A stretch of 37,934 bases of DNA. Source: Chitinispirillia bacterium. Its GTDB lineage: Bacteria; Fibrobacterota; Chitinivibrionia; Chitinivibrionales; Chitinispirillaceae. The DNA is taken from contig WQTH01000012.1 in NCBI GenBank assembly GCA_009786415.1, forward strand, positions 1 through 37,934, in the 5' to 3' direction. The notes below the pieces were generated by a model. The model saw nothing but the letters and a program-made list of their open reading frames with translations, was not told the DNA's origin and did no database searches. Positions 6,855-26,802 of this stretch are shown here, piece after piece. How positions within the stretch are numbered: the first letter of the stretch is position 1; each line of letters opens with the position of its first letter. The translations under genes were made by a program, and so were the position numbers.

Positions 6855-7757
6855 ATGTTCGATACGGAAGACCCGCAAAACATATGGGTATCGCCCGACG
6901 CCCCCGACGGCGGCATGGGGACGCACGAATCCCCGTTTTCAGAAATATCGTCCGCCCTCAAAAGGGTCACCCCCGGCCAGCATATTATTTTGATGCCGGG
7001 TACGTACCAGGGCGACCTGACCGTAGACACCTCCGGCGAGGAGAAAGCCCCCGTTTACATCTCCGCGCAGAACCCCGGAGAGGCCGTTGTCGACAACGGA
7101 TGCTGGTATTTTTATGATACGTCAGACCTCGTTGTCTCCGGCATGGCCTTCAAAAACACCCGCCACGGCGCGATCTCCGTAATGGGCAAATGCCTGCGGA
7201 ACCGGTTCCACAACATCAATTTTATTGACTGCGGGACAGACGAAAAAGCCTCCTGCACCCTCTATTTCGGCGGCGCCGGGGGGCGGTTCAATATCGTGGA
7301 AGACTGCGTTTTCTCGCGCTCCGTCAACACCAAAAGCGTAGGGGCCGAAGCGGTCGTATCCGCGAAATCCGCCGCCATCAGCACCCAAAACGCGGCGGTG
7401 GGGCTTATGATATCCGACGGGGGCAGCGGCGCGCCGCTCACAAACTACGTGGTCAGGAACAACCGCTTCAGCGGCTACGACCGCGCGGTCATCGTAGGCT
7501 CCGGCGAATCGGAATTTGAGAGCGGGCACAGCGTAGACCTGAACAGGGTCGACGGCTGCGCGTGCGAGGGTATAGTAATAAAATGCGGCGATGTGCAGGC
7601 ACGCGGCAACGAAATCCGCAACTGCGCCGGAACCGCCATAGTGTTTGACGGCGGCGAGGGGTCGGAGGCAAACGGAAACCTGATATCGGGATGCGGCGGC
7701 GGGATAACCGTCAGCGGTATCAGCCACACTATCACAGGGAACCATATAACAAAATGA
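6855..7757 (+). CDS. Right-handed parallel beta-helix protein without evident signal peptide
   Basis: 'NIWVSPDAPDGGMGTHESPFSEISSALKRVTPGQHIILMPGTYQGDLTVDTSGEEKAPVYISAQNPGEAVVD' is a typical start of DUF1565/pectate-lyase-like beta-helices; later 'N.ISGCGGGITVSGISHTITGN' turns. Starts at TTG 6849 or ATG 6855. Confidence 0.8.
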   Translation: MFDTEDPQNIWVSPDAPDGGMGTHESPFSEISSALKRVTPGQHIILMPGTYQGDLTVDTSGEEKAPVYISAQNPGEAVVDNGCWYFYDTSDLVVSGMAFKNTRHGAISVMGKCLRNRFHNINFIDCGTDEKASCTLYFGGAGGRFNIVEDCVFSRSVNTKSVGAEAVVSAKSAAISTQNAAVGLMISDGGSGAPLTNYVVRNNRFSGYDRAVIVGSGESEFESGHSVDLNRVDGCACEGIVIKCGDVQARGNEIRNCAGTAIVFDGGEGSEANGNLISGCGGGITVSGISHTITGNHITK

Positions 7758-8701
7758 AAATCTTCATAACAGGCGGTACCGGGAACATAGGCCAATACGT
7801 GACATTGGCGGCTGCCGATAACGGGCACGAAGCGGTTGTGCTGACACGGTCGCCGGAAAAATATCCGTCTATGGCGCGAAAGGCAGCACTTGTTAAAGGC
7901 GTCATCACAAATTATGAATTGATGGCCGACTGCGTCAAAGGATGCGATGCCGTGATCCACATAGCGCTTGGGTGGGGGGACGAGCCGGTATCAATGCTAA
8001 CAAACGATACGGCGGCTACCGTCAAACTGTTGGAAATGTCCGAAAAAGCGGGCGTAAAAAAGTTCATCTACACCAGCAGCACCGCGGCTATGGGGCTTAT
8101 GCGGCCCGTCATGGAAGAGTCTATGGCCAATATCCCGGTTGACCTCTACGGCAGCACAAAAGCGGCGTCTGAGGCGTACGTGCTCGGCTTCAGAAAATAC
8201 TACGGGAGCGGCGGCGAGGTGTCTATGAAAAGGAACATCATCCGCCCCGGATACACGTACTCAACACCGCCGTGGGACGACGGGGTGACGCAGCCGGACT
8301 CGCGGTTCAGGGACATTGCGGACGCAATCGTCAACGATCAACCGGTAGCACTGACAAAGCACGACGGCACGCAGTTCATATCGGCGCGGGAGATCGCGCA
8401 ATTATATATGAAGTTGATTGAAAGCGATAAAAACGAAGAGGTCTACCTCGCCCTCGGCAACATGTTTACAAGCTGGGAACGTATAGCGATGATCGCGCTC
8501 GACGAATATCCGGAATCAAAATCCGAAATAATACTCAGGGATTTGGGATGGGGCGAGCAGCCGATGATGTTTGACATACGCAGGATGCAGAGGGATTTTG
8601 GGCTGTCGTTCGACAGCCAGAAGTATCTGCACGAACACATCAAATGGAATCTGGCCGAAGCGATAAAGAGAAAATCATCCCAGACAAAATATTGCCGCTG
8701 A
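7754..8701 (+). CDS. NAD(P)-dependent epimerase/dehydratase (extended SDR)
   Basis: MKIFITGGTGNIGQYV Rossmann motif; 'YTSSTAAMG', 'YGSTKAASE' YxxxK. Start overlaps the upstream stop (ATGA). Confidence 0.88.
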   Translation: MKIFITGGTGNIGQYVTLAAADNGHEAVVLTRSPEKYPSMARKAALVKGVITNYELMADCVKGCDAVIHIALGWGDEPVSMLTNDTAATVKLLEMSEKAGVKKFIYTSSTAAMGLMRPVMEESMANIPVDLYGSTKAASEAYVLGFRKYYGSGGEVSMKRNIIRPGYTYSTPPWDDGVTQPDSRFRDIADAIVNDQPVALTKHDGTQFISAREIAQLYMKLIESDKNEEVYLALGNMFTSWERIAMIALDEYPESKSEIILRDLGWGEQPMMFDIRRMQRDFGLSFDSQKYLHEHIKWNLAEAIKRKSSQTKYCR

Positions 8702-11974: not shown

Positions 11975-14836
11975 ATGGCTAATCCTAAGCGTTTCGCGGG
12001 CATCGGTGCCGCGTTTTTGTTCACTTTCGCGTTGGTGGCGGCCTTTTGGGGGCCGGCGACGGCACAAACCGGGGATAAGTACTGCGAGATCGCTCTGGCA
12101 GGTTGCCCCCAGGATTATGACGGGAGCCAACTGGTCGTTCCCCTTGATGTGATCGCGATGTCTTCGGTGATACGCGGGTGCGTCAGGGTGGATTCGTCTA
12201 CCGGCGGCAACGTGGAAACACCGGCTATTATGTTCATTATCGACCACTCCAGAAGTATGAGACTTAATAATAACAGCGTTTCTGCCAGCGACAACGATCC
12301 AAACGGAAACCGGTTCAGGGTTACGCGGGCGCTTGTCGACACGATCGCCAAAGTAGTTCCCGATGCACAGGTTGGTGTGGCGATATTTGCTTCCGGACTT
12401 GTTCACCAAACAAGCTGGGACCGTAACCTGATCGCATTCGAGCCGTCGCCTTCCGACGGGGCATATCTGCCTCTCAGGCCGCTCAACGCTACGGCGCAAA
12501 CCGGGGGATACGCATCCGGTTCCAACGCCACATGGTATGACGTGATTATGGGTATGTTTAATGTCCCGGCAAACGTAAATAACCGGTCAACGCTCCGCAA
12601 CGGCAGCGGCAATACGGTCAACGAGCAATCGAACACCAACATTTCAATCGCGTTCGAAGCGGCAATAATGGAATTCCAAAAAAACAACGCCGCAAATGGC
12701 ATACCCCCCAAAAATCAGTATATAATTTTCCTTTCCGACGGCGAGCCCACGGTACCAAGCGGCAGCGCCTGGAACTCCAAGCTGAACAATTTCCGTGACA
12801 GTACGGCGAACACGCCCACTACATATACGGTTTTCCTGACCAACAACAATTCGCCAATTCCGGCACAACTGAATACAATGACCGCCAATATACAAAATAA
12901 CGGGTACTCAAATAACAACCCAAACAGCAACATTTGGTCAATAGCCGCCGACTACGACGGTCTGCTCTCCCTTATGATGGATAACATAATCGCGCACATG
13001 ATGACAAATGTCGACGGCACCCCCAGAAGAATCATCATCCAAAGCGCCGGCGTACGCGACTCTACCGGCGAGGTGGATAATAACTTCACATTCAGCAGAC
13101 GCCTGCCCATAGATACGGCGGATATTACGAATGTAAGCATGGGTGTAACATACAATATGCGAATAGACTCGACATGGGTGATACCGGGAACGGACCGCGA
13201 CACCACCACCACGGTACGCACGGTAGATTCACTCTTTACATACGAGTTCACCGTGCGCCGCACCGCAGATGCTGCGTCTCTTGTCAACTGGCAGAACCAG
13301 AGCGGCGGCCTGGAACCGTCCTGCGGTGAAAAACCCACGCTTGGCCTGCAGTTCAGGGGCGAGACTCTGGCAAGTTCTGCGACAAACACCGTAAAAGAGG
13401 TCAGGGGGAACATGGACGTTCTAACGGTAGTGTTCGACAACACCGCCGGCCTGTTTGACTACACAAACGTTATAGTGCAGGTGCTGAACGATGACGGCAC
13501 CATTTCCGATACAGTAAATCTGACACTGCGCAAAGCCGGCAATATATGGACCTCCGAGTTCCCGAGGCTGACGGTTTCAAATCCCGATATGGTAAATACC
13601 GCCGACGGGGTTTTGCAGCACGCGCCTAAAGACAGTATAATACTGGTATTCCGCAACCCGGAAATTCCGCTTGACACATTGCGTATCGCTGTACCTTACA
13701 TCCATACGAACATGGCGTTTTACGACATCCCCGGCCCTCCGGACAGTACCAGGCTATATCCGGATGCCATCTCGGTAATCGCCGGAGACCAAACGGATAT
13801 CTACGCCAAGTTCTTTGACGCCGACGGCGTTTGGGACCAGACAATTGATCCGTCCAAGGTCGTGTGGACGCTGAACGACAGAACCAACGCCTCGCTGAAA
13901 ATCGACGGCCTCCACGCCATGTTTGAGAGTACCGTTGCCGGCCGGTTATACTCGGTAACGGCGACATACACCGAAGGGACTATGGTGATAACGCGTTCCA
14001 TCAACATCTCGGTGGTTCCGGGCCCGCCGGTCTATCTGGAGGTGGTGCTCGATCCTTCCAGAGCAGGCGCTCAAGCCGACACTAACAAGTTGAAGGAGCC
14101 TCAGGAGTACACGTTCGAAAAGGATGTAAGCAGCGCAGTGTTCTACGTTATAGAGCGCGACCGTTACGGCAACCGGATAACCGAACCCGACTTCTCCCGG
14201 GATCATTATGTGTGGTCAAGCAACGATCCGCGGGCCATAACCGCCAACAGGCGGGACAGCACCTCGGCGGATGTAAAGAGGCAGGGCAATTCATTCGCCA
14301 ACGGGCTGCAGGTTACAGTAACCAAGGGCCTTTTGGAAGGCAAGGTTAATATAAAGGTAGTGGGCGAAGCCTCGGTGGCTATGGGTCCCAACCCGTTCAT
14401 CCCCGGCACGAGCAGCGTCAAAGACAGGTTGGAGAGAATAGGTCTCAGCGAGGAAGCCAAGAATACCTATATGGAGATTGTAAACAGGGAGGGCCTTTCC
14501 AACCACGGTGGCGGGAGCAACGACCCTAAGGGCATACTTATCGCCGCTACCGCGCCGAGAAACGTTCTGACCTCCGGTACCGGCAGCACCGGCAACCCGA
14601 AGGTTACAATAATGATTTATGACGCGGTGGGCAATGTTGTCTTCCGCAGCAAGCCGAATGATATTACGCTCGCCAACGACGGAACGACCTTCGGGTTTGT
14701 CTGGGATGGCAAGAATATGTCCGGCAGGAACGTAGGCCCGGGCACGTATTTGGTGCACATTGTTGCTCAGACCGACGGAGAAAGGTTTAACAGCAGGCGA
14801 AAAATTGGCGTAACTTTGGAAGGCAAACTCAGGTAA
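11975..14836 (+). CDS. Large secreted VWA-domain protein with C-terminal PNPF/FlgD-like sorting-type domain (paralogue 1)
   Basis: Signal peptide; MIDAS 'IMFIIDHSRSM' (DxSxS), 'IIFLSDGEP'; C-terminus 'GPNPFIPG...KVTIMIYDAVGNVVFRS...FGFVWDGKNMSGRNVGPGTYLVHI'. Confidence 0.8.
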   Translation: MANPKRFAGIGAAFLFTFALVAAFWGPATAQTGDKYCEIALAGCPQDYDGSQLVVPLDVIAMSSVIRGCVRVDSSTGGNVETPAIMFIIDHSRSMRLNNNSVSASDNDPNGNRFRVTRALVDTIAKVVPDAQVGVAIFASGLVHQTSWDRNLIAFEPSPSDGAYLPLRPLNATAQTGGYASGSNATWYDVIMGMFNVPANVNNRSTLRNGSGNTVNEQSNTNISIAFEAAIMEFQKNNAANGIPPKNQYIIFLSDGEPTVPSGSAWNSKLNNFRDSTANTPTTYTVFLTNNNSPIPAQLNTMTANIQNNGYSNNNPNSNIWSIAADYDGLLSLMMDNIIAHMMTNVDGTPRRIIIQSAGVRDSTGEVDNNFTFSRRLPIDTADITNVSMGVTYNMRIDSTWVIPGTDRDTTTTVRTVDSLFTYEFTVRRTADAASLVNWQNQSGGLEPSCGEKPTLGLQFRGETLASSATNTVKEVRGNMDVLTVVFDNTAGLFDYTNVIVQVLNDDGTISDTVNLTLRKAGNIWTSEFPRLTVSNPDMVNTADGVLQHAPKDSIILVFRNPEIPLDTLRIAVPYIHTNMAFYDIPGPPDSTRLYPDAISVIAGDQTDIYAKFFDADGVWDQTIDPSKVVWTLNDRTNASLKIDGLHAMFESTVAGRLYSVTATYTEGTMVITRSINISVVPGPPVYLEVVLDPSRAGAQADTNKLKEPQEYTFEKDVSSAVFYVIERDRYGNRITEPDFSRDHYVWSSNDPRAITANRRDSTSADVKRQGNSFANGLQVTVTKGLLEGKVNIKVVGEASVAMGPNPFIPGTSSVKDRLERIGLSEEAKNTYMEIVNREGLSNHGGGSNDPKGILIAATAPRNVLTSGTGSTGNPKVTIMIYDAVGNVVFRSKPNDITLANDGTTFGFVWDGKNMSGRNVGPGTYLVHIVAQTDGERFNSRRKIGVTLEGKLR

Positions 14837-14895: not shown

Positions 14896-17772
14896 ATGCT
14901 CACCATAAATCGGATTGTGGGCGTGGGCACGACATTTCTGTTGGCGCTCACAGTTATTATCACCGTATTTGGTTCTGTCGCCGCACAGAAGACCACAGGG
15001 ACAATGGAGTATTGCGAGGTCACGCTGACCGGATGTCCACAGGATTACGACACTCTTGAGATCGTAGTTCCGCTTGGCGTAATCGCCATGTCTGCGCAGA
15101 TCAGGGCGTGCGGGATATATGACGAAACATCTACGGAGGGCAGCAACGGAGTTCCGGCGGTCATATTTGTGATTGACAACTCTAAGAGTATGGGCAACAT
15201 AAACGTGGACGGCAGAGACCCCAACGGCAACCGCTTCAAGGCAACGCTCGCCCTTATAGACTCAATATACGCCGTGTACCCAAGCGCTGAGGTGGGGATT
15301 GTCATTTTTAACGACGCGCTTATTTTCAACGCCGACCGCGACGCGAACCTTAAACGTTTTAACGGGACGACTTATCCGGGCCTTTTTCTGGATTACCTGA
15401 ATCAGTCTTATCTGCCCCTCAAGCCGCTCAACTCGTTGAGCACGCGCGGCATGACGGCCAACGGCGGGGCAGACCACATTTTTACCAGAGGCGAAATCCC
15501 GTGGAAAGACCTGCTCAACCGCGTATTCTCAGACACGGCGGTAGTGACCGGCGGCATACCCAGAGTTATCACGCAGGTAGTGGAGCCTACCATAGGCGGC
15601 CGTCAAGCCGAGGACACCGATATATCGCTGGCGTTTGAAGCGGCGGTTGAGGCTTTTAAGGCTACGAACCTGCCACGGGAGAACCAATGCATAATATTTC
15701 TGTCAGACGGCGATGCGCTGCTTCCTTACGGCTCGGGCGGAAACCGCAACCCGCGCATAGACAACCAAAACAATTACTTCGAAAATGTAAACGACGTACC
15801 AACCACGTACACAATCTATCTTGGCGACGCCCGCAACAAGGACATCCCGGCCAATCTGGACACCATGACCAACAGGATACGCCGAAACGGGTACTCCGAC
15901 TCAAACGATGACAGCAGGATATGGATTCAGGAGTCAAACTACAACGAGCTTTTGACGCGTATGATGGAGAACATCATTTCGCCCATGCTTTCCAAGTCTG
16001 AGGGCAACGCCAACAGCATTGTTATTTCCAGCGCCGGCATAAGCGATTCGGCCAAAGCGGATAACGAAGAACATTTCATATTCAACAGGCAACTGCCTAT
16101 AGACACGGCGGAGGTTACTACCATATCAATGGGCGTTCGCTACTATGTGCGGGTAGATTCGACGTATACACTGGACCTGGGAATGGAGACTCAGCGCGAC
16201 ACTACCTATACTGTACACATAAATCCGGACTCGCTGTTCACCTACGAGTTCAAACTGCGGCGCTCCGCCGACCCGCCTGCGGGCTGGGATACCCTGATGC
16301 AGACGAGCCGATGCTACGAGCGGCCCACACTCAGCCTTCTGTTTCAGGGAGCGGGTCTGCCGGGCCTCGAAGCCAACGGGACCATGGATACCCTGACGGT
16401 ATTGTTCGATAACACCGGCGGAATGTTTGACTACGATTCGGTTTGGGTGGACGTCAACAACTCCCGCGACGCCTCTTTCTACGATTTTGAAAGATTGACG
16501 CTGCGCCGGGAAGCGGGCAGTATATGGACTATGGATTTCCAAATTGAACCTTTCGACCATGCATCAGCAGGCGACGGGATATTGCAGCTCGGGGTGGAGG
16601 ACAGCATCATAGTGGTCTTCCGCAATCCGCATATCCCACTCGACACGCTGCGCGTAGCCGTACCGTACATCACCTCCAATGTGGCATTCTACAGCCGCGA
16701 CGGCGAACCCAAACCTGAGTGGCGGCTGCCCACCACCGTCGAGATGACCGCCGGCAGCTATTTAGACATATACGCGAAGTTCTTCGATCAGGACCACGTA
16801 TACGATCCATCGTTCGAGAGCGACCCGTCAAAACTTGAGTGGACCTGGAAAGACCCGGATAGCAATGCCACTATAGAGACGGACGGCATCCACTGCCGGT
16901 TCTACAGCGAGACGGCAAACGCCGTCTACTCAATGACGCTAAGGTATCTTGACGACCGCGCTATACCACTGTCACACACAATCCACGTAAGGGTAGTCCC
17001 GGCGCCGCAGCGCTATTTGGAGGTCGTGCTCAACCCTTACACTTACACGGCAATGGCGAAGGTGAGGGATACCAACGTACTTAAGCGGGCCAAGGAGTTT
17101 CCGTTCTCAAAAGATATTCAGCATATCACGTTCTACGTGATTGAGCGCGACCGTTTCGGCAACTATATAGGCCTCTGCGCGGGCGCCGAGTGGACGAGCG
17201 CCAACACGATGTTTCTCTCTGCGGAACCGCAGGGCGACAGCAGCTCGGCGCTTATCACGAGGCTCGGAACCACATCCGCCGACAACCTGCTGATAACGGT
17301 GGAAAAGGACGGCATCTCCACCATGGTGTTCGTCAGGCTGGCCGGCGAAACATCGATGGCGCTCACCCCCAACCCCTTCATACCCGGCAGAAGCGATGTA
17401 GAGAAAACACTGCGGACTATAGACCCATCCGGCATGACATACTTGTTCTACAGAGACATAATAGTGGCGAACCGCAACAAGTCCGGCATACTCATAGCCA
17501 CAACGGCCCCTACCAGCATTATGCGAAATACAAACGGCACCCCAACGGCAAAGGTCATGATCTACGACGCGACCGGCAAGGTAGTCTTCAGAAGCGCGCC
17601 GCGCGACATAACGCTGGCATCCGACAACACAACATTCGGGCTCATTTGGGACGGCAGAAATAACAACCGCAGAAGGGTCGCCGGCGGAAACTATTTTGTT
17701 ACTATAAGCGGTACTATGGAAAACGGTATAAAGTATAACGCCAAGCGATTGATTGGGATTAAAGTCGAATGA
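14896..17772 (+). CDS. Large secreted VWA-domain protein with C-terminal PNPF/FlgD-like sorting-type domain (paralogue 2)
   Basis: Colinear with 11975..14836: 'YCEVTLTGCPQDYD..EIVVPLGVIAMSAQIRACG', 'VIFVIDNSKSM', 'IIFLSDGDA', 'TPNPFIPG', 'KVMIYDATGKVVFRS...WDGRNNNRRRVAGGNYFV'. Confidence 0.82.
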   Translation: MLTINRIVGVGTTFLLALTVIITVFGSVAAQKTTGTMEYCEVTLTGCPQDYDTLEIVVPLGVIAMSAQIRACGIYDETSTEGSNGVPAVIFVIDNSKSMGNINVDGRDPNGNRFKATLALIDSIYAVYPSAEVGIVIFNDALIFNADRDANLKRFNGTTYPGLFLDYLNQSYLPLKPLNSLSTRGMTANGGADHIFTRGEIPWKDLLNRVFSDTAVVTGGIPRVITQVVEPTIGGRQAEDTDISLAFEAAVEAFKATNLPRENQCIIFLSDGDALLPYGSGGNRNPRIDNQNNYFENVNDVPTTYTIYLGDARNKDIPANLDTMTNRIRRNGYSDSNDDSRIWIQESNYNELLTRMMENIISPMLSKSEGNANSIVISSAGISDSAKADNEEHFIFNRQLPIDTAEVTTISMGVRYYVRVDSTYTLDLGMETQRDTTYTVHINPDSLFTYEFKLRRSADPPAGWDTLMQTSRCYERPTLSLLFQGAGLPGLEANGTMDTLTVLFDNTGGMFDYDSVWVDVNNSRDASFYDFERLTLRREAGSIWTMDFQIEPFDHASAGDGILQLGVEDSIIVVFRNPHIPLDTLRVAVPYITSNVAFYSRDGEPKPEWRLPTTVEMTAGSYLDIYAKFFDQDHVYDPSFESDPSKLEWTWKDPDSNATIETDGIHCRFYSETANAVYSMTLRYLDDRAIPLSHTIHVRVVPAPQRYLEVVLNPYTYTAMAKVRDTNVLKRAKEFPFSKDIQHITFYVIERDRFGNYIGLCAGAEWTSANTMFLSAEPQGDSSSALITRLGTTSADNLLITVEKDGISTMVFVRLAGETSMALTPNPFIPGRSDVEKTLRTIDPSGMTYLFYRDIIVANRNKSGILIATTAPTSIMRNTNGTPTAKVMIYDATGKVVFRSAPRDITLASDNTTFGLIWDGRNNNRRRVAGGNYFVTISGTMENGIKYNAKRLIGIKVE

Positions 17773-17867
17773 AACGATTAATTCGCGGACGAATATCCAC
17801 GCGCGCAGAATTGGTGTTACGATACGGTGTTAGAGATTTTGGGATGTTATGGTATTTATTAATATAG

Positions 17868-18024
17868 ATTCGGGTGTCAGGGAATCCCGTGAAAACCGGG
17901 AGCGGACACGCCACTGTAAATCCTGATTCCGTTTTGCTGGAGCGGAATCATAAGCGGTCAAACCACGCCACTGCCTCTGCGGAGATGGGAAGGCGGCCGC
18001 TTGGGAAAGCCAGGAGACCTGCCT
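17868..18024 (+). ncRNA. Cobalamin (adenosylcobalamin-type) riboswitch
   Basis: GGTGTCAGGGAATCCCGTGAAAACCGGGAGCGGACACGCCACTGTAA ... AAACCACGCCACTG ... GATGGGAAGGCGGCCGC ... GAAAGCCAGGAGACCTGCC contains the conserved B12-box blocks in order, upstream of a TonB-dependent receptor. Confidence 0.93.
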
Positions 18025-18044
18025 GAATTTGTTCCATTATTCTA

Positions 18045-18072
18045 CGGCCCTCGTGGATGGGCCGGAAGGGTC
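18045..18072 (+). promoter_or_regulatory. Candidate riboswitch expression-platform hairpin
   Basis: CGGCCC-tcgtggat-GGGCCG followed by GAAGGGTCTTTTG, immediately 3' of the aptamer. Confidence 0.5.
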
Positions 18073-18130
18073 TTTTGTGCGCGTGCCGATATCATTGCCG
18101 GCGCCCGGAATCGCGGGCGGACGGGGGCGG

Positions 18131-20122
18131 ATGTCCCCGTACATTATATTGTTGATGATTTTGATGGCGGCGTTTGCCGCATCGTCAAATAATATTGCCG
18201 ATGACGCCGAGGTTATCATCATGGATGACGATGACGAAACGGTGCTTGTCGTCCGCCACCGCGCTGCCTCTCCCCTCTCCCCATCATCCCGCACAATAAG
18301 GGCCGAAGAGTTTCAGGGCAAATTTTCCGATCTGGCATCAGTACTGGAAACCGTCTCCGGCATCAACATACGTACAATGGGCGGGCACGGGCAGTACGCC
18401 GAGGGCGCGATACGCGGGGCATCGGCGCAGGGCATACGTGTGTACCTCGACGGCGTACTGCTCAACAGCGCGTCGGCCGGGGCGGTCGACCTGAGCAAGA
18501 TTCCGTTAGACAGAATCCGGGTAATCCGCGTTACAAAAAGCACATCGGGACTAAGGCAGATGGGCGCGGGGATGGGCGGGGTCATCGAGCTGTTTACGGA
18601 CGTTGACAGGAGGATAATAAGCGCGAACCTTGAGGCCGGCAGCTACGGCAGCATAAAGGGGGGGATGATCATCAAATCCGGCAGCGATAAAAACATCCGG
18701 CAGCAGTTTAACGCAGACGCATCGTCATCAAATAATAATTACCCATACATACACGACAACGGCACGACAATACCAACACTGCGCGACCCCGACCCAACAT
18801 GGGACGATACGCTTATGCGGAAAAAGAACAATCAGTACAGAGCAGCCGACGCCGCGTACGGTTTATCAATCGACATCAACGACAATCACAAAATAACCCA
18901 GCAGCTGCGCGCAGGAGCGTTCACACAGGGGCTGTTCGTCTATCACTACAAACACAATAAAAGCGGTTCGACGGGGGGGCGCAACGCCGCGTACAGTATT
19001 GATTATCAGGGCGTCATCACCGACAAATTGACATTAAGCGGCGAGGCTAACGCCGTTTACCGATACAGCAATATAAGCGACCCGGACGGGCGTTTTTATC
19101 TGAGCGTAGCGGGGAAGGAGCTGGAATCGTCAGGCGGGTCGGCGGACATTATAGCAGACGCGAAATATTCATTGACTGATAATTTTTATCTGGCAGGACT
19201 GATCGGAACACGCGCCGAACATTATACACAGCGCAATCTCGCGATAACAGACAGGCCGGAGATGATAAGGCATGAGTACAGGGCAGGCGCGGAGGCAGGA
19301 TTGACAACGGGGGTGGTCGAGGCCGCTCTGCGCGCTGCCTATAAATATGAGGCCGATACGTCAACAGCAGGATTGGGGTACTGGTCGCCGGAAGGAAGCC
19401 GCCGCACACTCTCCTGCCCCGCCGCGGAGGCCGTTGCCAGACTCAACATCAATCCGGTAACATTGCAGCTGTCCGCCTCAACATCAAAGCGCAGCCCAAC
19501 GTTCTTCGAAAAGTTCGGCTGGGGCGGCGGGTTTATCTCTACACCCGAACTTAAAGAGGAGACGAGGATGGAGGCTGACATCGGCGCGTCTATTGACATG
19601 GGTGAATACACGGCGGCGGTATCTCTCTTCGCGGGAGAGATCAACGACAAGATCAAAAGCATCCCACGCGGCGGCGGGTTCGTGAAGGTTATGAATTTCG
19701 CGGACACGAGGTTTTACGGGGCCGAGGTTGATATCAACACAAGATTATTACGGCTATTGACGGTTGAAATCAGCACATCATACCTTAAAAGCGTAATCAG
19801 CGGCGCTGCGGATCCGGGGTGGGTAAACAAGGCAGAGCCGTTCGTCCCGGAACTGTCCGGCTATATAAAAACAGAAGCCGATATCAAACACTTAAGCATA
19901 GGCCACGGGGTAAAGTATGAGAGCGATTGTTTCCTTGGCATTGACAACAGGGAAAAGCGCCCCGCCCAGACGGAGTTGAGCGCCTGGGCGTCTTACAGGA
20001 TCGCCGAATATCTTACAGTACGTTACCGTGCGGACAATTATCTCAACACGGCCAATTTTGATTTTCTGGATAATCCTAAGCCGAGAAGGACACACGCGGT
20101 GTCGGCGGCTTTATCATTTTAA
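18131..20122 (+). CDS. TonB-dependent outer-membrane receptor, BtuB-like
   Basis: TonB-box-like 'DETVLVV'; plug 'LASVLETVSGINIRTMGGHGQYAEGAIRGASAQGIRVYLDGVLLNSASAGAVDLSKIPLDRIRVIRV'; C-terminal aromatic 'SAALSF'; under a B12 riboswitch. ATG 18131 preferred over TTG 18029, which lies close behind the aptamer. Confidence 0.88.
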   Translation: MSPYIILLMILMAAFAASSNNIADDAEVIIMDDDDETVLVVRHRAASPLSPSSRTIRAEEFQGKFSDLASVLETVSGINIRTMGGHGQYAEGAIRGASAQGIRVYLDGVLLNSASAGAVDLSKIPLDRIRVIRVTKSTSGLRQMGAGMGGVIELFTDVDRRIISANLEAGSYGSIKGGMIIKSGSDKNIRQQFNADASSSNNNYPYIHDNGTTIPTLRDPDPTWDDTLMRKKNNQYRAADAAYGLSIDINDNHKITQQLRAGAFTQGLFVYHYKHNKSGSTGGRNAAYSIDYQGVITDKLTLSGEANAVYRYSNISDPDGRFYLSVAGKELESSGGSADIIADAKYSLTDNFYLAGLIGTRAEHYTQRNLAITDRPEMIRHEYRAGAEAGLTTGVVEAALRAAYKYEADTSTAGLGYWSPEGSRRTLSCPAAEAVARLNINPVTLQLSASTSKRSPTFFEKFGWGGGFISTPELKEETRMEADIGASIDMGEYTAAVSLFAGEINDKIKSIPRGGGFVKVMNFADTRFYGAEVDINTRLLRLLTVEISTSYLKSVISGAADPGWVNKAEPFVPELSGYIKTEADIKHLSIGHGVKYESDCFLGIDNREKRPAQTELSAWASYRIAEYLTVRYRADNYLNTANFDFLDNPKPRRTHAVSAALSF

Positions 20123-20138
20123 AACAAAGGGGTGTTTT

Positions 20139-21290
20139 ATGCGCAGGATCAGTATCAGTACCATAGCGGCTGGATTGGCGTTGATGTTTATGATGTCGTG
20201 TTCGAACAATTCGAACCCCACCAACAACAATAACACGGGGGGGGACACAATCCCAACGGCCAATACGGCAAAATTAGCCGTTATCACTACCGCCAGCGAC
20301 TACTCGTCTACAAACTTTGATATTATGTTATCCGACGGCTACACTGTCAGTTCGAACCTCATCGATCAGCTCCATAGTGACCTCTCGGTGCGGGCGTTCG
20401 GCTCCGATGTCTACATCATCGAGCGTCTCGGCAGGGACAACATCATAAAGTACGACACGAAATCGATGGGAGTCTTGTACCAGCAGAACCTCGGAGCCGG
20501 CCTGAACCTGCACGATATCGCGGTAGTCTCGGAGACGAAGGCGTACGTCAGCGCGTACGAGGATAACGGGCTGATAATCTTCAACCCATCGGCGGGGACG
20601 AAAACGTCCGCCATTGATATGTCGCGTTTCGCAGCGTACGCGGGGACGGACAGCGCCGAGGCGGTCCCGTTCGTCAGCTCGCTCGCGCTCTACGGCAACT
20701 ACCTCTACGCGGCGTGCCAGCGCCTGAAGGTAGCCGATGGGCCATGGGGTCCCGCGCCGGAACCGGGAGACACAAGCATCATAGCCGTAATAGACACCCG
20801 CAGCGACGAAATCGTGGCCGAGATCAAATTAAACAGGAAGAACCCGGCGTCTATGAGCATCTTCGGGGATAAAATGCTCGTCTCGTCGACCGGGAGCTGG
20901 TTCGACATAACGAGCGGGGGCGTGGAGATGATAGACCTCTCCTCAAACACGAACCTCGGCATAATAGCGGAGGGCGAGGCGTTTGGCGGGAACGTGTCGA
21001 GCGCGGTCTTCGTGTCGGCGGAGCGGGCGTACATCAGCGTAATGCAGGATGACTGGACGACGGGGATCGTACCGTTCAACCCGGCTACGGGAGCCATCGG
21101 CGCGAAGATTGAGGGCATAGGCGACGGGTTCGGTGGGTTGGCGTACGACGGGGAGAAGCTGTACGTCGGTGACCGCGGGTATGCGGAGGCGGGCGTGGCG
21201 GTGATAGACCCGAACACAAACACGGTCGAGCGCACGGTAGCCACGGGGATGCCGCCGTCGGGGTTGGCGGTGGTATCCGGTAAACATTAA
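20139..21290 (+). CDS. Beta-propeller (YncE/DUF5074-like) lipoprotein, candidate BtuG-like cobalamin-binding partner
   Basis: Lipobox 'LMFMMSC' + Asn-rich linker; repeated blade motifs 'DIAVVSETKAYVSAYEDNGLIIFNPSAG', 'GLAYDGEKLYVGDRGYAEAGVAVIDPNTNTVERTVATGMPPSGLAVV'. Confidence 0.72.
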   Translation: MRRISISTIAAGLALMFMMSCSNNSNPTNNNNTGGDTIPTANTAKLAVITTASDYSSTNFDIMLSDGYTVSSNLIDQLHSDLSVRAFGSDVYIIERLGRDNIIKYDTKSMGVLYQQNLGAGLNLHDIAVVSETKAYVSAYEDNGLIIFNPSAGTKTSAIDMSRFAAYAGTDSAEAVPFVSSLALYGNYLYAACQRLKVADGPWGPAPEPGDTSIIAVIDTRSDEIVAEIKLNRKNPASMSIFGDKMLVSSTGSWFDITSGGVEMIDLSSNTNLGIIAEGEAFGGNVSSAVFVSAERAYISVMQDDWTTGIVPFNPATGAIGAKIEGIGDGFGGLAYDGEKLYVGDRGYAEAGVAVIDPNTNTVERTVATGMPPSGLAVVSGKH

Positions 21291-21305: not shown

Positions 21306-21380
21306 GGCCAGTACACCGGGTGCCGTCCGACGACTGCACGACCAGCGTGATGTCGCCGGACGGCACCCGGCGCACTGGCC
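21306..21380. repeat. Long imperfect palindrome/hairpin (~29-bp arms, three A/C mismatches)
   Basis: GGCCAGTACACCGGGTGCCGTCCGACGAC...GTCGCCGGACGGCACCCGGCGCACTGGCC with inner CACG-accag-CGTG. Confidence 0.85.
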
Positions 21381-25908: not shown

Positions 25909-26802
25909 TTAATACGACGTAGATTCGTGCAGATATTTTATCCACTGCGTGAAGAACTCCGTCCGGTGCGAGCGCCACAGGTTTACCGGGTTGTCCAGGT
26001 CTACGTTTTTGGGCGGGTCTACGTCGGTCCTGCCTTTGGCGGCGTCGCGGCGGTACTCTTCCACTAAGCGGCCCGGATCGTATTCGGGGTGGCCGAGGTG
26101 TATCAGGAAGCGGCTGTCGGCGCTTTCGAAGATGATGTACCCAGCGCCGTCCGCGTGCGCCAGCAACTGCACGCTCCCGTCTTCCTGCGCCTGTTCGAGC
26201 GCGGCGTCGTTTATGCCGGAGTGGCGGCTCTGGGCGCACCAGAACCAGTCGTCCATCTCGCCGGTTATCGTGTGGCCGCGCTTGAGGTTGACGGTTTTGT
26301 AAACGCCGAATATCTTTTTATCGTAGAGGGTTTTGTCTATGCCAAGGTACTTCGCCAGCGCGAGCCCGCCCCAGCAGATGCCCAAGGTCGAGGTCACGTT
26401 CTTTCTGGCGTATTTGAGGATGCGCTTTATCTCCTCCCAGTAGACCACGTCTTCGAACGGTATCTCCTCCACCGGCGCGCCGGTAAGGATAAGCCCATCA
26501 AGGCGCGAGCGGGCCACGGCCTCCTCGAACGTGACGTAGAGCTTGTCCAGGTGGGACCGGTCGCTGGAGTTGTAGTTGTGCGTTTTGAGCTTGATCCACA
26601 CCGGCTCGATCTGCAGCACCGACCGCCCAAGCGGCTGGAGCAGGCTGAACTCGTACGTTTCGGCGCGGGGCATAATGTTAAGGATACCTACGCGCAGAGC
26701 GCGGATGTCCTCCCTGAGCGCGTCCTCGTTCGAAACGCACTGGACCTGACGGCTTTCGAGCGCCGCCTTTGCGTGGTAATCCCTGGGTACGACAATTGTC
26801 AT
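25909..26802 (-). CDS. metA: Homoserine O-succinyl/acetyltransferase
   Basis: 'LRVGILNIMPRAETYEFSLLQPLG', 'LILTGAPVEEIPFEDVVYWEE', 'TLGICWGGLAL', 'HLGHPEYD'. Confidence 0.94.
   Translation of the reverse strand: MTIVVPRDYHAKAALESRQVQCVSNEDALREDIRALRVGILNIMPRAETYEFSLLQPLGRSVLQIEPVWIKLKTHNYNSSDRSHLDKLYVTFEEAVARSRLDGLILTGAPVEEIPFEDVVYWEEIKRILKYARKNVTSTLGICWGGLALAKYLGIDKTLYDKKIFGVYKTVNLKRGHTITGEMDDWFWCAQSRHSGINDAALEQAQEDGSVQLLAHADGAGYIIFESADSRFLIHLGHPEYDPGRLVEEYRRDAAKGRTDVDPPKNVDLDNPVNLWRSHRTEFFTQWIKYLHESTSY

Follow-up and report, generated by a model that had tools for sequence, protein, structure and literature searches.

The window analysed here, a stretch of 37,934 nucleotides from a Chitinispirillia bacterium (contig WQTH01000012.1, positions 1 to 37,934), carries a cobalamin riboswitch followed on the forward strand by two genes, the first coding for a TonB-dependent receptor and the second for a beta-propeller lipoprotein. 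An earlier note, made from the sequence alone, had taken this arrangement for a candidate BtuB/BtuG uptake locus outside Bacteroidota. The taxonomic part of that proposal is correct, as the source lineage is Chitinispirillales and NCBI taxonomy places the nearest named records, which are metagenome-assembled genomes of Chitinispirillia/Chitinispirillales, in Fibrobacterota, FCB group.

Using cmscan, the cobalamin riboswitch aptamer (RF00174) was located at 17855..18040 (+) with 70.3 bits (E=1.5e-15; gathering score 31.5). The match spans all 189 positions of the covariance model, which confirms the complete aptamer of the earlier note. The window contains no other Rfam match, and the 2.68 Mb genome of this organism no second cobalamin riboswitch. 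The aptamer is followed at 18045..18064 (+) by a hairpin with the stem CGGCCC/GGGCCG and the loop UCGUGGAU. Among eight close relatives the stem is preserved by paired changes (CGGCCC/GGGCCG versus CGAUCC/GGAUCG) and the loop start UCG is conserved, with UCGNGG in seven of the eight. The probable Shine-Dalgarno sequence GGAAGGG (18064..18070, +), a conserved purine run directly 3' of the stem and 6 nt ahead of the GTG/TTG, shares its first base with the 3' strand of the hairpin. In the same eight relatives this strand runs directly into the Shine-Dalgarno sequence, with a conserved GTG/TTG a few bases on, and in many more distant relatives a comparable hairpin is followed at once by AGGAGG or a near match to it.

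The earlier note had described a terminator-like hairpin at 18045..18072. The hairpin exists, but the terminator reading was rejected on the basis of the missing adjacent T run, its absence from the terminator-scan list, and the contact with the Shine-Dalgarno sequence in relatives. Since the hairpin is no terminator yet touches the Shine-Dalgarno sequence, translational control is probable and is the simplest reading of the sequence, with the hairpin probably serving as a P13-type expression platform. In the E. coli btuB riboswitch the regulatory hairpin lies close to the ribosome site. A kissing-loop partner within the aptamer was also sought; a five-base complement (CCGUG), a possible partner, occurs at one column in six of eight sequences, but it found no consistent support among wider relatives.

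The receptor gene occupies 18077..20122 (+). Because the Shine-Dalgarno sequence and the conserved GTG/TTG adjoin the hairpin in relatives, its start is probably GTG 18077, which we prefer over the alternative ATG 18131 and over TTG 18029. Its product contains a candidate TonB box (ETVLVV; 18236..18253, +), which we take to resemble that of E. coli BtuB, and a plug domain (PF07715; 18287..18583, +; Pfam E=1e-11) that was also seen by genome search, the genome containing two plug-domain receptors in all. A profile built from 35 relatives and searched against the PDB gave E. coli BtuB (9e-45) and the Bacteroides BtuB proteins (1e-43 to 9e-42), with siderophore receptors lower, and a single-sequence search likewise put BtuB first. 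Foldseek analysis of the modelled receptor of a relative (G005, 79% identical) placed the Bacteroides thetaiotaomicron structures 8blw, 8bmx and 8p98 (BtuB1, BtuB2 and BtuB3) first, with template modelling (TM) scores to the target of 0.80-0.83, followed by E. coli BtuB; XusA appeared only at rank 16. The nearest solved structures by profile and by fold are therefore BtuB, as the earlier note supposed for the gene behind the aptamer. Because its scores lie below the NCBIfam equivalog cut-offs (TIGR01779, 56.1 versus 599.7 bits; NF007926, 46 versus 836), we class the protein as BtuB-like rather than as an equivalog, although TIGR01779 is its best NCBIfam match.

The propeller gene begins 16 nt past the receptor stop and extends on the forward strand from ATG 20139 to the stop at 21290. 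It encodes a protein of 383 amino acids with a signal peptide and the lipobox MMSC (within MFMMSC; 20190..20201, +), the Cys21 of which, the residue for lipidation, is invariant in an alignment of 31 relatives. AlphaFold, using 31 sequences, returned a confident propeller model with a predicted local distance difference test score (pLDDT) of 89.2 and a predicted TM score (pTM) of 0.84. Seven blades were counted from its strand list, the last being formed by the C-terminal strand together with three N-terminal strands. Spacing, lipobox and model agree with the surface-type beta-propeller lipoprotein described in the earlier note. Foldseek ranked BtuG structures 1-7 (TM to target 0.73-0.78), the best match being 3dsm/BtuG, with 1l0q at 0.63 and YncE at about 0.60. 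In an hmmsearch with the family profile, ranks 1-9 were again BtuG (5e-11 to 2.5e-10), followed by 1l0q at 2.7e-9; when the members with rearranged domain order, described below, were left in the alignment, 1l0q ranked first instead. A single-sequence phmmer search matched only 1l0q, an archaeal S-layer propeller. Among domain families, DUF5074 (Pfam) covers only a quarter of the protein and the NCBIfam YVTN-repeat matches are generic. Pfam analysis of both operon genes found neither a BtuH nor a DUF4465 domain.

Linkage was assessed in 61 genomes, namely that of the organism itself and those of 60 relatives. Of these, 56 contain the propeller, 57 the riboswitch and 59 the receptor. In 48 of the 56 propeller-bearing genomes the riboswitch lies 2.05-3.3 kb upstream of the propeller on the same strand. 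Seven of the eight exceptions seem to be due to broken contigs or absent ends, and in the eighth (G041) cobamide salvage genes stand between riboswitch and receptor. With the propeller profile, matches were obtained in 156 of 168 genomes from the phylum, and in 88 of the 89 of high quality. The earlier note had made its proposal depend on conservation of the lipoprotein next to btuB, and these counts show that the pairing holds phylum-wide.

In about 20 loci the operon genes are directly followed by those for a periplasmic binding protein, an ATP-binding cassette (ABC) ATPase and a FecCD permease (BtuF-BtuD-BtuC). Further downstream, in varying sets, relatives carry genes for BtuR/CobO, a CobQ-type amidotransferase, CobU, CobT, CobS and a DUF71-type protein. 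The last of these, a DUF71/diphthamide-synthase-type protein (PF01902), is encoded in or beside the operon at L049, L054-L056 and L058, and BtuR adjoins it in L049, L054, L055 and L056. In the organism itself btuF-btuD-btuC-btuR are located away from the riboswitch operon, near the end of another contig (G000:C9, L080 5308-8583), and have no riboswitch match of their own. This genome also encodes the B12-dependent MetH, through which its methionine synthesis proceeds.

From these results we conclude that the locus is very probably a homologous BtuB-BtuG-type corrinoid capture and import system of Chitinispirillales (Fibrobacterota). The earlier note had allowed for either an equivalent of BtuG or a convergent protein. 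The shared architecture and genomic position on which it relied hold good, and since the sequence profile and the fold comparison both put BtuG first, homology is favoured over convergence. Independent recruitment to the btuB operon of a propeller unrelated to BtuG, possibly doing the same job, is unlikely; sequence identity with BtuG reaches only about 16% and the general repeat signatures are common to beta-propellers, but BtuG is the top match by both methods, and by fold the receptor, too, lies closest to Bacteroides BtuB. Still less credible is a generic YVTN/YncE surface propeller, adhesin or S-layer-like, co-transcribed with btuB by chance. The unspecific DUF5074 and YVTN-repeat matches and the lone phmmer match to 1l0q would suit such a protein, yet the linkage of the lipoprotein to riboswitch and btuB extends throughout the phylum, BtuG is preferred to 1l0q and YncE by the profile as well as by the fold, and btuFDC and cobamide salvage genes come next in relatives. 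We regard this explanation as very improbable.

Several observations weigh against the homologous BtuB-BtuG-type system. Besides the low identity just mentioned, DUF5074 gave no match in four of six scanned relatives (two canonical and two permuted). The pocket residues of BtuG2 are Trp194, Trp272, Tyr316 and Tyr335 (PMC10404256). A moderately reliable mapping, with an alignment accuracy averaging about 0.74, sets Gln194 and roughly Asn285 against the two tryptophans and shows no clear conservation of the tyrosines. Gln194-Arg195, Gly284 and Arg346 are almost invariant across the aligned Fibrobacterota propellers, and therefore the pocket seems, from the alignment, to be kept within the phylum yet built unlike that of BtuG2. 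The acidic, Bacteroidetes-type export signal was not found behind Cys21, where the residues are CSNNSNPTNNNN; some relatives show CSD or CID at the lipoprotein Cys. This signal has been described as exclusive to Bacteroidetes (PMC6143338), and as a criterion it may be inapplicable in Fibrobacterota. Lastly, when receptor and lipoprotein of a relative were folded together (G005, L036; stop read through, nine fused rows), the domains were good but, with a pTM of 0.64, no confident docking was obtained; for a lid as such this result counts neither way.

Two of these points bear on what the system binds and on which side of the membrane it does so. The apparent lack of conservation of the BtuG2 pocket tryptophans, together with the CobU, CobT, CobS and CobQ-type genes of relatives, which suit the salvage of incomplete corrinoids, would fit a locus whose preferred ligand is not complete cobalamin but something else related to B12, be it cobalt, a metallophore or an incomplete corrinoid (for instance cobinamide). 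We consider this improbable in view of a receptor nearest to BtuB by profile and fold and a partner ABC transporter of the BtuFCD type. That no known surface-export signal was identified after Cys21 would agree with a lipoprotein that stays at the periplasmic face of the outer membrane and assists the channel from inside; the homology with surface-exposed BtuG, and the presence of BtuF in the periplasmic role, make such a location quite unlikely.

In the BtuB-BtuG-type system that we favour, we infer cobalamin binding, outer-leaflet display, lid-like docking and the direction of the switch. At low intracellular cobalamin the riboswitch would leave the Shine-Dalgarno sequence accessible, and receptor and lipoprotein would be made together; bound cobalamin would stabilise the downstream hairpin and shut the ribosome site. 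The lipid-anchored seven-bladed propeller would capture corrinoid outside the cell and pass it to the BtuB-like channel, which would bring it in with TonB energy. BtuF, BtuD and BtuC would then carry it into the cytoplasm, where BtuR/CobA would adenosylate it and MetH would require it.

The locus resembles BtuB2-BtuG2 (BT1953-BT1954), BtuB1G1 and BtuB3G3 of B. thetaiotaomicron (PMC6143338, PMC10404256) in its cobalamin riboswitch, BtuB-type receptor and adjacent seven-bladed propeller lipoprotein. As in the Bacteroides systems, btuFCD-type ABC genes belong to the regulon in many relatives, and these systems provide the nearest folds for both proteins. It differs from them in belonging to Fibrobacterota, in its BtuG identity of about 16%, the pocket tryptophans, which do not seem to be conserved, and the failure to find the recognised Bacteroidetes export signal, in the circular permutation of the propeller in many Fibrobacterota relatives, and in the uncoupling of btuFDCR from the riboswitch operon in its own genome. 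With E. coli BtuB it shares a BtuB-type plug and barrel and an upstream cobalamin riboswitch, but the E. coli protein has no propeller lipoprotein partner. SusC-SusD-type systems and XusA-XusB likewise combine a TonB-dependent channel with a lipoprotein partner, although ligands and partner proteins are different. BtuH and DUF4465 (BtuJ) are also accessory B12-binding proteins of riboswitch-controlled loci, but have other folds; DUF4465, a beta-jelly roll, occurs outside Bacteroidota too (PMC8941943, PMC13398666).

BtuG has been reported exclusively from Bacteroidetes (PMC6143338), and BtuG or lipoprotein-capped TonB-dependent transporters generally have been called Bacteroidetes-exclusive (PMC6143338, PMC10404256). 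We found no literature linking BtuG with Fibrobacter in a search that was thin on subscription papers and preprints. The use of a lipoprotein partner for B12 capture probably extends further than the published record, and its presence throughout Fibrobacterota would carry the origin or spread of lipoprotein-capped B12 uptake past a single phylum and outside the human gut.

Some relatives gave split profile matches to the propeller in reversed order. A survey of domain order separated the canonical propellers from two permuted layouts, called type A if the chain begins at blade 3 and type B if it begins at blade 6, and from propellers whose first two segments have changed places. In the type A layout, model positions 153-175 come first and 38-165 last. 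It belongs to several separate lineages, namely G003 from the same genus, G016, G043, the family f7 and a large clade within f8, and stands in the same operon slot (L042 5325-6461 (-), L083 5440-6927, L084, L089, L090, L093-L095, L097, L111-L121 and L123). Type B is confined to three genomes of family f11 (L086 4851-6188 (-), L087 4987-6873 and L122 3659-4828); in the L086 protein the propeller is preceded by an Ig-like domain, He_PIG of Pfam. The segment swap occurs with identical breakpoints in three distant genomes (L039 5644-6774, L053 2964-4070 and L065 7679-8767 (-)). In the rearranged cases examined the receptor is upstream, as is the riboswitch where the contig reaches that far.

At least eight changes of order are required on the receptor tree, and at least nine on a tree of propellers restored to one order. 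A single origin of type A was rejected by the approximately unbiased test (p-AU 1e-60, obtained with a quick tree that has some long branches and for a group named after seeing the data). The permuted propeller of G003 is nearest to the canonical propeller of the same-genus G006 (66% identity), and therefore the permutation probably arose in place. In G141 there are two apparently complete tandem propeller copies (C30:5343-6455 and 6919-7947), which would fit permutation through duplication and partial deletion and may represent an intermediate. Assembly error was considered as a source of the permuted propellers. The same frames are present in a second copy of the public records, which excludes only a fault of a single copy; a general artefact was rejected because permuted propellers turn up in many genomes of high completeness, a conclusion less firm for the three swaps, each known from one genome.

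In Bacteroides the N-terminal linker of BtuG runs along the receptor and has been proposed as a hinge (PMC10404256). We lean slightly towards the view that, within one and the same riboswitch-btuB slot, the Fibrobacterota propeller was cut anew on many occasions and that, if these proteins are BtuG-type lids, the anchor hangs from differing blades and the hinge is not a fixed requirement. If true, this would provide a natural series of hinge variants with which the pedal-bin hinge model of BtuBG becomes testable, and an unusual instance of a gene permuted again and again without leaving its place in the operon.

Behind the operon, at 21306..21380, is a strong palindrome (fold z -7.4). Its half-site has 31 matches in the genome compared with two in a reversed control; the genomic copies often form inverted pairs at a distance of 35 bp and often lie close to the end of a contig. 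It is a dispersed repeat, similar to repetitive extragenic palindromic (REP) elements, and probably lies outside the uptake system. Upstream of the riboswitch, at 11975-14836 and 14896-17772 of the window, two tandem genes each code for a large protein in which a von Willebrand A domain is accompanied by a FlgD-Ig/CHU_C-like domain at the C terminus; a large conserved protein is encoded at the corresponding upstream position in L036, L039 and L040. A few kb downstream, at 25909-26802 (-), is a frame whose translation, judged by eye, resembles homoserine O-succinyltransferase (MetA).

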